Below are positions 50,763-53,337 of a stretch of DNA of 64,000 nucleotides, piece after piece; position 1 is the first letter of the stretch, and every line of letters starts with the position of its first letter. The notes under the pieces are model-generated. The model did not search any database. It saw only the letters and a program-made list of their open reading frames with translations, and had not been told where the DNA came from. Origin of the DNA: an uncultured Acinetobacter sp. (GTDB lineage Bacteria > Pseudomonadota > Gammaproteobacteria > Pseudomonadales > Moraxellaceae). A program made the translations under genes and the position numbers. Location: assembly GCF_947493735.1 (NCBI RefSeq), contig NZ_CANLSL010000002.1, positions 1 through 64,000 on the forward strand. The letters run 5' to 3'.

Positions 50763-50789
50763 TAGCCCTGCTGATGCGGGGCTTTTTAT
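50763..50789 (+). terminator. Rho-independent terminator
   Basis: AGCCCTG-CTGATG-CGGGGCTTTTTATT. Confidence 0.82.
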
Positions 50790-50808: not shown

Positions 50809-51147
50809 TCACTTTGTTCGGTAATGTGGATCTTTTTTCCAAATAATCTGATTAAAATAAAGTTCAAAGAACATTGCGATTTTCTTCGCAATAGAGGTTT
50901 TAAACAACTTGGAATCCATGTAAATCATCGGCTGATCTTTTTTAGTATTGAAAATTACACGACCTCGTGGAATTTCCTCATATTCGATATATTGTAAATG
51001 CGAATTTTCCACACGCAACTTTTCCCAATACTGCACATGGTTATAATCGCTGTCGATTAAACCCAATGAATCTGCATCATTTTGATCAAAATGATGCGCT
51101 ATACCAATCACTCGATCTTGATCATACCAAAAGATACCGATTTTCAA
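50809..51147 (-). CDS. Small conserved-looking protein of unknown function (TTG start)
   Basis: Begins (TTG) MKIGIFWYDQDRVIGIAHHF...; start codon abuts the stop of the upstream ORF (TAA TTG). Confidence 0.7.
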   Translation of the reverse strand: MKIGIFWYDQDRVIGIAHHFDQNDADSLGLIDSDYNHVQYWEKLRVENSHLQYIEYEEIPRGRVIFNTKKDQPMIYMDSKLFKTSIAKKIAMFFELYFNQIIWKKDPHYRTK

Positions 51148-51882
51148 TTATTTACTCGGAAGAAGTTCTAAAAGTTTATTGCGAGCAATTTTTGCTTCTT
51201 TTCGCCCTCTAATCGTCGATGGATGCTGAATCCTGAAACATTGATATTTATCATTAAAGTTAAATTGCCATAGCTGATTTTTCGTAATGTCATTACTTTC
51301 AAAGGTTTTTGAGTCTTTACACTTATCTAGCGGAAACATTTCACGTCTGTACTTAACAGAGGACAATCCATTCGCCAAGATGATGAAATTTGGCTGAAAA
51401 TAGTTTAATTGAGCTTGCAACAAACTTTTTGAAACCTCATGAATTTCTTTAAAATATTTTGTATTGATCGGACTTTTCTTCCTCCACGAAAAAGCAAATA
51501 AATTGCAATACAACAGCCCATCACTTCCACTCCTTTCAGAAACAGCTCTCGTGAAATCATGAAAAGTAATTTTGCCTGTATTTTTTAACGACAATTGTTT
51601 CTCAAAGAAATTTTTTTGCTTAGCTATTGAACGATCAATATAATCTTTCAAATTCGAATAATGACTTTCTCCTTGCACATCCCACCCTCGCGTTTCCGCA
51701 CCAATGATCATAATTTTATTTTTTGCTTCAAAGTATTGATCAGGCTGGCTTGGCAAAAACAGCCCTGATAGACCTGCTTTTTCATGATATTTCGTTTCGG
51801 GATGATTTTTATCAAAGTAACTTTCATCTAAATTTGAAAGTATGTCTAAATATTCATTCTTAAGAGTGTTTGCGTTTTTCAT
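51148..51882 (-). CDS. Uncharacterised protein, possible uracil-DNA glycosylase-fold protein (paralog of 51913..52629)
   Basis: KIMIIGAETRGWD ... NFIILANG ... FRIQHPSTIRGRKEAKIARNKLLELL; motif order resembles the UDG superfamily. Confidence 0.7.
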   Translation of the reverse strand: MKNANTLKNEYLDILSNLDESYFDKNHPETKYHEKAGLSGLFLPSQPDQYFEAKNKIMIIGAETRGWDVQGESHYSNLKDYIDRSIAKQKNFFEKQLSLKNTGKITFHDFTRAVSERSGSDGLLYCNLFAFSWRKKSPINTKYFKEIHEVSKSLLQAQLNYFQPNFIILANGLSSVKYRREMFPLDKCKDSKTFESNDITKNQLWQFNFNDKYQCFRIQHPSTIRGRKEAKIARNKLLELLPSK

Positions 51883-51912
51883 ACTGTTTCCCTATTGAAA
51901 AAAATAAGTAAA

Positions 51913-52629
51913 TCACATCATTTCTTTTAAACTTTGCATTGCATCGTTCTGATATTTTTTAGTAAATTTTCCATAATAACTTGGATGATATAATCTAATA
52001 CCGTTAAATCCACATAATTCAAGTTGTGCTATTTCACGAATTGAATAACCATTTCCAAATTGGCTAATCTTTATTTCTGGAAAATGAAATCTTATGTCAT
52101 GGTCTCTATTTGGTCCAGTCATAAATATACATAAATCAGGTTTGATAATTTGTAACTCATGGGAAATGACAGAAAAATTTTCACGTTCTATTTTTCTTAT
52201 AGCATCAAATATTCCCGATCCCAAATTTTTAGATTTACCTATTTTAGAAATATTATTCCAAATAAATACTGGTGACTTTCCCTGATCTAAAACAGCATTT
52301 GAAAGTTCTCTTTCAAAATAACGGAATTTTTTCCAAAACGAACTTTTAGAGTATCCCTCATAGAAATTACGTTCTAAGAAAAATTTTTCGTACTCTGACA
52401 TCCCAATCTCTATCCACTCTTCTAATGTGCGGTGGTCATACCACCCTAGAGTTTCTTGCCCAAAGATAATAATTTTATATGCGGTAGGATTATTTATAGC
52501 TTCAGGAACTTTAATCAAGAAAGGCATTGCATACTTTTTATTCTGATTTTCCAGCGCATTAGATATATCATCCCAATGATTTCTATATAACATTTCTAAT
52601 TGTTCATTCTGATTCATACGTAAACTCAT
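51913..52629 (-). CDS. Uncharacterised protein, possible uracil-DNA glycosylase-fold protein (paralog of 51148..51882)
   Basis: KIIIFGQETLGWYD ... DLCIFMTGPNRDHDIR ... IRLYHPSYYGKFTKKYQNDAMQSLKEM. Confidence 0.7.
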   Translation of the reverse strand: MSLRMNQNEQLEMLYRNHWDDISNALENQNKKYAMPFLIKVPEAINNPTAYKIIIFGQETLGWYDHRTLEEWIEIGMSEYEKFFLERNFYEGYSKSSFWKKFRYFERELSNAVLDQGKSPVFIWNNISKIGKSKNLGSGIFDAIRKIERENFSVISHELQIIKPDLCIFMTGPNRDHDIRFHFPEIKISQFGNGYSIREIAQLELCGFNGIRLYHPSYYGKFTKKYQNDAMQSLKEMM

Positions 52630-52637
52630 ACTTCGGA

Positions 52638-53024
52638 TTATATTTCAGACAAATCATATAAAAAGTCTGATACTTTATTTGCAAGTATTTCATGTTCATC
52701 TTGTAATTCAACAATTTCCACCATCAAATCATCCAAGCCAGTTTGCTCTTGAATGCTGACACCTTGAATTTCCAAAAAAGTCAGCATCACAGCCAATCCA
52801 GTGCGCTTATTCCCATCAACAAAGGCATGACCTTTAGAAATTGCTATACCAAACCACGCCGCAATCTCGAACAAATCTTCGACTTGATTGTAGTACATTT
52901 GCTGTTCGATTCTGCCGAGGACACTTTCTAATTTCCCAATGTCACAACCCGCACGACCAACACCAGTTTGACGCAAAATTTCATCGTGTACCGCAACGAC
53001 GAAGGTCAGATTAATCAGACTCAT
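52638..53024 (-). CDS. doc: Doc/Fic-family type II toxin
   Basis: Fic/Doc motif HAFVDGNKRTGLAVMLTFLEIQG; 4-nt overlap with the upstream small ORF. Confidence 0.9.
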   Translation of the reverse strand: MSLINLTFVVAVHDEILRQTGVGRAGCDIGKLESVLGRIEQQMYYNQVEDLFEIAAWFGIAISKGHAFVDGNKRTGLAVMLTFLEIQGVSIQEQTGLDDLMVEIVELQDEHEILANKVSDFLYDLSEI

Positions 53025-53200
53025 TTATATGCCAACGCTTGTAATTCTGCTTTATGTTGTTGAATGATACGTTTCGCACTATGCATTACCACACGTTTAG
53101 TCGCTTCATCATCACTAAACTGCATCTCTAACACCTGTGCTTTGATGGCAGATCGCTGTTTACGATCATCAGAATTATATTTTTCAAGGCGCTTATTCAT
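53021..53200 (-). CDS. Small antitoxin-like protein upstream of Doc
   Basis: MNKRLEKYNSDDRKQRSAIKAQVLEMQFSDDEATKRVVMHSAKRIIQQHKAELQALAYK; positioned as the antitoxin, with translational coupling. Confidence 0.72.
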   Translation of the reverse strand: MNKRLEKYNSDDRKQRSAIKAQVLEMQFSDDEATKRVVMHSAKRIIQQHKAELQALAYK

Positions 53201-53280
53201 ATCATTTCTCACTCTTAAATCTCTTCAAAATATAGCATAGTAAAATGAATTATAGATTGTCATTTTTATTACTGCCAAAA

Positions 53281-53308
53281 AATAAGGGCTGATTACTCAG
53301 CCCTTATT
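53281..53308 (-). terminator. Rho-independent terminator downstream of acnB
   Basis: AATAAGGGCTGA-TTAC-TCAGCCCTTATT with a T tract on the minus strand. Confidence 0.85.
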
Positions 53309-53337
53309 CTACTCAATTCAATCTATTTATCAATAGA

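Follow-up and report, generated by a model that had tools for sequence, protein, structure and literature searches.

What is the function of a compact cluster of five genes, among them one for a Doc toxin and two for proteins resembling uracil-DNA glycosylases (UDGs), that lies between the housekeeping gene acnB and a CDF transporter gene in an uncultured Acinetobacter sp., and do these genes belong together? The stretch of DNA that we analyzed, referred to here as the window, comprises 64,000 nt (GCF_947493735.1, contig NZ_CANLSL010000002.1, positions 1 to 64,000, forward strand). The initial annotation had described five packed minus-strand ORFs at this place and had proposed that they form an inserted cassette, possibly for defense, in which a toxin is tied to UDG-like partners. 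All five ORFs, encoding an antitoxin-like protein, Doc, UDG3, UDG4 and S5, are present in this interval (Table 1). The antitoxin and doc frames overlap by 4 nt, gaps of 8 nt and 30 nt separate doc from UDG3 and UDG3 from UDG4, and the TAA of UDG4 abuts the TTG start of S5 (0 nt). Comparison with a second copy of the cassette, found in genome G102, yielded dN/dS values of 0.14 (antitoxin), 0.03 (doc), 0.29 (UDG3), 0.20 (UDG4) and 0.05 (S5); purifying selection acts on all five ORFs. The G+C content of the cassette is 33.7%, essentially the minimum of the window, whose mean is 41.4%.

Table 1. Features of the cassette in the window and of related modules on Acinetobacter plasmids.
Feature	Position	Strand	Evidence
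Predicted promoter of the cassette	53249..53278	-	TTGGCA-18-TATAAT, 11/12 consensus matches, sigma-70-like
Intrinsic terminator of acnB	53279..53310	-	14-bp hairpin and U-run, -23 kcal/mol, z -6.3
Antitoxin-like ORF, 62-63 aa	53021..53212	-	No antitoxin family match; upstream of doc in other loci too
Doc toxin, Fic fold	52638..53024	-	TIGR01550 7.5e-18; PF02661 2.4e-13; phrog_577 6.7e-31
UDG3, UDG-superfamily-like	51913..52629	-	GQETLGW..WNN..HPS; UDG4 profile 9e-10; invariant A6 columns
UDG4, UDG-superfamily-like	51148..51882	-	GAETRGW..F107..N127..H220-P221; model; profile to 4zbx 9.2e-5; phrog_29550 3e-16
S5, 112-aa companion, undescribed family	50809..51147	-	A5 alignment, confident model
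Terminator of the convergent CDF transporter gene, not of the cassette	50764..50783	+	U-run on + strand only
pdif-bounded S5-antitoxin-doc-macro modules	L071 4020-6383; L084 1831-4186; L089 2736-5110		

Terminator hairpins had been suggested to close the cassette on each side. This holds for the acnB side, where the terminator serves acnB and separates it from the cassette, but not for the other side, where the hairpin lacks a U-run on the cassette strand. A promoter-like site comes directly after the acnB terminator, and the two elements together make the cassette look like a transcription unit of its own; promoter-like sites are no more common there than in shuffled sequences, so that it is position and score that speak for the predicted promoter.

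Pairwise BLASTP comparison of UDG3 with UDG4 gave a weak match (20%, E 0.002). Despite this, a UDG4 profile finds UDG3 (Table 1) and, by sequence, the two proteins are distant paralogs, as had been surmised. In a 16-member alignment of UDG3- and UDG4-type proteins (A6), residues G61, E63 (90% or more), T64, W67, F107, N127, P164, H220 and P221 are kept, and both paralogs retain the motif order G-x-E-T..W, F, N, H-P. In UNG, the active-site elements follow one another as Asp, Phe, Asn and His; the A6 motifs are arranged in the same order, and the succession of an acidic motif 1, an aromatic residue, Asn and His-Pro that marks the UDG superfamily is present. The AlphaFold2 model of UDG4 (pLDDT 83.4) adopts an alpha/beta fold, which extends to UDG3 by homology to UDG4, and all six PDB matches of the model at E<=0.001 belong to the UDG superfamily (TM 0.38-0.57). 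The best of these is the family-4 UDG of Sulfolobus tokodaii, which the A6 profile also reaches by sequence (Table 1). Hence, the fold matches and the profile match show that the name UDG-like had been chosen correctly. UDG3 and UDG4 have the fold and the order of active-site motifs in common with family 4 and the wider superfamily (PF03167; 4zby, UdgX, SMUG1, TDG, MUG). They differ from it in that two paralogs share one operon, in motif 1, which is GQDPYH or GEAPG in known UDGs and G-x-E-T-x-G-W here, and in falling below the Pfam cut-off: the UDG model PF03167 matched neither protein, and their relatives score 17-23.8 bits against a gathering score of 24.3. We regard UDG3 and UDG4 as probably diverged members of the UDG superfamily with a predicted glycosylase activity.

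The UDG4 family is patchily distributed (6/399 genomes of the phylum). UDG4 matches phrog_29550, a PHROG without assigned function; phage-borne relatives of UDG4 thus exist. Phage GenBank records contained no match for UDG4, and viral contigs searched with single-protein queries none for UDG3 or UDG4. Directly 5' of UDG4 homologues in Pseudoalteromonas and in another genome from the window's own family lies the gene for a different small protein of 109-113 aa, a candidate alternative partner (L142 3669-3998, L150 1160-1501). On a Hymenobacter plasmid (L147 4001-7914), a UDG3-type homologue adjoins SIR2 and Piwi genes, resembling short-Argonaute defense, and a DNA methyltransferase gene.

The place in which the cassette resides is itself informative. 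A survey of 118 acnB-downstream loci of Moraxellaceae revealed 37 different first-cargo clusters, while 23 loci carried no same-strand cargo within 700 nt of acnB (material of the site: window 53338-50631; L053-L070, L081, L082, L110, L111, L154-L253). Many of the occupants are restriction or abortive-infection genes. The occupants include Abi_C, putAbiC (twice), GmrSD_N, AAA_15/21, AlbA_2+NACHT, HNH and DUF4062 proteins and nucleases of the Mrr_cat and PDDEXK_4 types; these two nucleases match the PADLOC candidates PDC-S02 and PDC-S26 as well. The cargo thus provides a defense-island context of the kind known for Brig-type proteins, the acnB 3' flank is a defense exchange site in Acinetobacter, and the suggestion of an inserted cassette in a defense setting was borne out.

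Exchange at this site separates the members of the cassette from one another. UDG4 follows acnB alone, without doc and without S5, in seven genomes. UDG3-type genes lacking doc are found at acnB in G011, G120, G109 and two Alkanindiges genomes; S5 is present in G011 and both Alkanindiges genomes, broken in G120 and reduced to a fragment in G109. The gene order in G078 is antitoxin-doc-UDG4-S5. In G086, a close relative, an Mrr gene has taken the place of UDG3, UDG4 and most of doc, of which 18 codons are left, and the ends are kept (antitoxin 98% and S5 96% identical): this is an effector swap between conserved ends. It follows that the Doc pair is separable; S5 is the hinge of the cassette. 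S5 is intact in six of eight acnB loci with a UDG partner, compared with four of 14 with another partner or none (one-sided p 0.048), a difference that is only suggestive since the loci are related and not independent. At least 10 genomes carry S5 remnants at acnB without a UDG partner.

The tie between the toxin and the UDG-like proteins that the initial annotation had proposed stands in part. Doc carries an intact HAFVDGNKRTG motif of the Fic type, and it scores 64.9 bits against TIGR01550 (cut-off 38.65). Family searches, including Pfam, NCBIfam, PADLOC and PHROGs, assigned the overlapping upstream ORF to neither Phd nor any other antitoxin family. With the Phd-Doc type II toxin-antitoxin systems the pair therefore shares a Doc protein with its motif and an overlapping antitoxin gene upstream, and it differs from them in an antitoxin of no recognized family and in being embedded in a larger cassette. 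Within the genus, 9 of the 15 places occupied by the window's Doc subfamily lie within ~1.6 kb of S5, so that the association of Doc with S5 and the UDG-like genes is not accidental. It is not obligatory, however: most UDG genes occur without doc, as the acnB loci described above and the loss of doc in G086 illustrate. Wide occurrence of the paralogs without their partner, which the initial annotation had named as speaking against the unit, thus applies to Doc but not to S5, and S5 proved the more telling partner of the two. Doc is best read as part of a separable toxin-antitoxin pair.

Searches of Pfam, NCBIfam, PADLOC, PHROGs and PDB sequences returned no match for S5. Its family is undescribed, and S5 is a broadly distributed, unannotated companion protein. 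The conserved residues are H37, W41, E55, Y56, R61, G62, R63, D106, H108 and Y109, of which the first eight are invariant among 39 members (A5) and the last two nearly so. Strict conservation within this set (H, E, Y, R, R, D, H) points to an activity that has so far not been recognized. The S5 model (pLDDT 96.8) has the order beta-beta-alpha-beta-beta-alpha-beta; no solved fold in the PDB matched it significantly, and a single phage protein in BFVD did (3.4e-4, TM 0.63). Two candidate identities were rejected. A DNA-mimic inhibitor of UDG of the Ugi type does not agree with the near-neutral charge of S5 (net charge of the family mostly -3 to +3; pI 7.0 for the window copy), and no inhibitor was among the listed fold matches. 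BapA differs from S5 in size and fold order, and S5 matched no Pfam family and is not of the ASCH type.

Homologues of S5 occur in Moraxellaceae, Chromatiaceae, Alteromonadales, Alphaproteobacteria, Campylobacterales, Hydrogenedentes, Acidobacteria and some large phage contigs, with 5/399 genomes of the phylum positive; phage GenBank records gave no match. Outside the Moraxellaceae, S5 is often a lone gene. Together with its presence in large phage contigs, this indicates that S5 is not dedicated to UDG partners and that the link between the two is recurrent but not exclusive. Several of the viral contigs with lone S5 homologues are 85-341 kb in size (L134-L139, around 5000), and there S5 might possibly be a DNA-metabolism or counter-defense protein. 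In three different lineages (L122, L123, L126), an S5 homologue adjoins a gene for an MBL-fold protein with an RMMBL-type (RNA-specificity) domain, the domain having been tested in L123. Elsewhere (L255 1468-3113), the S5 homologue overlaps by 4 nt the gene for a 425-aa protein that by eye has a RecB/exonuclease-type look.

The pairing of a UDG-like gene with S5 is found in the window, G102, G078, G011, the two Alkanindiges genomes, an Acetobacter plasmid, where the UDG4 homologue overlaps the S5 gene, and a Campylobacterales contig, where S5 lies beside a UDG-fold gene (profile E 1.2e-6). An Alteromonas plasmid (L092) carries S5 beside a UDG-like gene recognized by a weak match (E 5e-4, probability 31%). 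The neighbor of S5 in Microvirga (L094) was rejected as a UDG; its likeness is one of motifs only, and profile comparison gave E 0.3. Plasmids of Acinetobacter provide exact units. Inverted pdif sites enclose precisely UDG and S5 in L062, L087 and L088, and precisely an EVE-like protein and S5 in L074 and L076; longer pdif modules have the order S5-antitoxin-doc-macro-UDG-like (L071, L072, L084, L085) or S5-antitoxin-doc-macro-DUF1643 (L089). A comparison with hhalign relates the UDG-like protein encoded in the long module to A6 (probability 94%). Among 30 Acinetobacter plasmids with the UDG subfamily of the pdif modules, at least 26 have S5 within ~2.3 kb, many of them being near-identical copies. 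When as many as three mismatches are allowed, chromosomal DNA seldom yields a pdif match (6 in 799 kb). A search for inverted XerC/D sites flanking the chromosomal cassette of the window found none, which sets it apart from its plasmid relatives, whose S5-UDG, S5-EVE and S5-antitoxin-doc-macro units are exact pdif modules. A published description of the p3E072658 module lists a toxin-antitoxin pair and a macrodomain protein along with hypothetical proteins (PMC10272872); S5 was not analyzed there.

Two antiviral glycosylases invite comparison. Brig1 is an alpha-glucosyl-hmC DNA glycosylase that acts by antiviral base excision, and its best structural match was reported to be the family-4 UDG of S. 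tokodaii (Nature 2024; PMC11078745), the same as that of UDG4. Further likenesses are that Brig1 is encoded in defense islands, in some cases with toxin-antitoxin cassettes, and by one effector gene. No match in NCBIfam (E<=1) or PADLOC joins UDG3 or UDG4 to Brig1, and an S5-like partner has not been reported for Brig1. The Brig3-BapA operon, in which a 5hmC glycosylase is combined with a glucosyl hydrolase accessory (preprint PMC13160076), resembles the cassette in being a small operon that encodes a UDG-like glycosylase together with a single accessory protein, and S5, like BapA, could broaden the substrate range. BapA is, however, an ASCH-type protein of two beta-barrels (PMC13160076), whereas S5 has 112 aa, another fold order and an unrelated set of residues. 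DefensePredictor lists UDG in a figure legend among the domains of predicted, unvalidated defense systems (Science 2026; PMC13092281); its text names neither an Acinetobacter locus nor an S5-like partner.

Taken together, we read the cluster, with a probability of roughly 55%, as a mobile base-excision defense cassette at the acnB exchange site, in which S5 is a partner-independent accessory and the Doc pair is separable. Acting on invading DNA, UDG3 and UDG4 would probably remove a non-canonical base, in the manner of Brig1 and Brig3 (PMC11078745, PMC13160076), and the abasic sites left behind would block the replication of that DNA. S5 would work with the UDG-fold enzyme or with the nuclease exchanged for it; given that glycosylases in one genome and an Mrr nuclease in another are accompanied by almost identical S5 proteins, it would most likely act on the damaged nucleic acid or on a step that these effectors share, rather than bind one particular partner. 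The antitoxin-Doc pair may stabilize the cassette or back it up through a shut-off of translation. We count against this reading the seven genomes with UDG4 at acnB in the absence of S5, the repair-gene neighbors of some UDG4 relatives, the missing Pfam UDG match of UDG3 and UDG4, and the lone S5 genes outside the Moraxellaceae and in large phage contigs. More tentatively, and at odds clearly below even, S5 might found a new family of small enzymes that are accessories common to unrelated DNA-attacking effectors, with UDG-S5 as a new two-gene immune system.

The repair-gene neighbors raise the alternative that mobile DNA repair, or an anti-mutator function, is the task of the UDG-like proteins, which would remove uracil or deaminated bases from host or plasmid DNA with the assistance of S5. 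The fold of UDG4 is that of repair UDGs, a Cupriavidus homologue (L095) lies beside genes for a NucS-domain protein, ImuA, an error-prone polymerase, LigD and Ku, and the Hymenobacter UDG3-type gene is a few genes away from umuD and a Y-family polymerase gene. Yet this same Hymenobacter locus also holds the SIR2, Piwi and DNA methyltransferase genes, the alternative occupants of the acnB site are restriction and abortive-infection genes rather than repair genes, and the presence of the family is very patchy; we therefore consider a repair role rather unlikely. The position of S5 directly 3' of the enzyme gene or overlapping it, its place at the edge of pdif modules, and the frequency of toxin-antitoxin pairs in such modules (PMC13141974) would all suit an antitoxin or immunity protein that protects against a toxic UDG-fold or nuclease effector, each S5-enzyme pair being a toxin-antitoxin unit. 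Such a protein would hardly be expected to accompany UDG3 and UDG4 in one genome and, at 96% identity, the unrelated Mrr nuclease in another; UDG4 and UDG3 are moreover found without S5, and S5 is near-neutral, unlike the acidic DNA mimic Ugi, and matches no solved fold. On balance, an immunity function is improbable.

The lone S5 genes elsewhere and the S5 remnants at acnB would be explained if S5 were a selfish or orphan gene, an ancestral resident downstream of acnB, past which UDG, nuclease and Doc genes move as independent cargo. We give this no more credence than the immunity function: adjacency of UDG and S5 arose separately on plasmids and in other classes, pdif modules contain just UDG and S5 or an EVE-like protein and S5, and S5 is more often intact beside a UDG partner (p 0.048, uncorrected for relatedness). 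Least probable of all is a Doc-based abortive-infection or addiction module in which the UDG-like proteins serve as sensors of foreign or damaged nucleic acid and set the toxin free. The intact catalytic motif of Doc and its own antitoxin, its genus-wide proximity to S5 and the plasmid modules S5-antitoxin-doc-macro-UDG-like and UDG-S5-antitoxin-doc speak in its favor, but at most loci UDG genes, paired with S5 or by themselves, are maintained in the absence of doc, and in G086 doc was lost whereas the antitoxin and S5 remained.

The cassette is, in our preferred reading as a mobile base-excision unit, swappable and probably antiviral, and its S5 is met again elsewhere next to enzymes of a similar kind, to nucleases and to toxin genes, in many cases within modules on plasmids. 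Very few proteins (Brig1, Brig3) are known to use base excision against viruses, and the cassette would add a distinct mobile family of this kind in a medically relevant genus. Were S5 indeed a general accessory, its effectors would comprise UDG-fold glycosylases, Mrr and PD-(D/E)XK nucleases, S5 would act on the nucleic acid that these damage, and a UDG-S5 base-excision system would travel in the form of XerC/D modules on plasmids of Acinetobacter, clinical isolates among them. For this widespread companion, whose strict conservation hints at a new activity, G086 offers a natural experiment, the same S5 with a different effector, and the acnB flank is a place in Acinetobacter where further defense systems can be read off directly.
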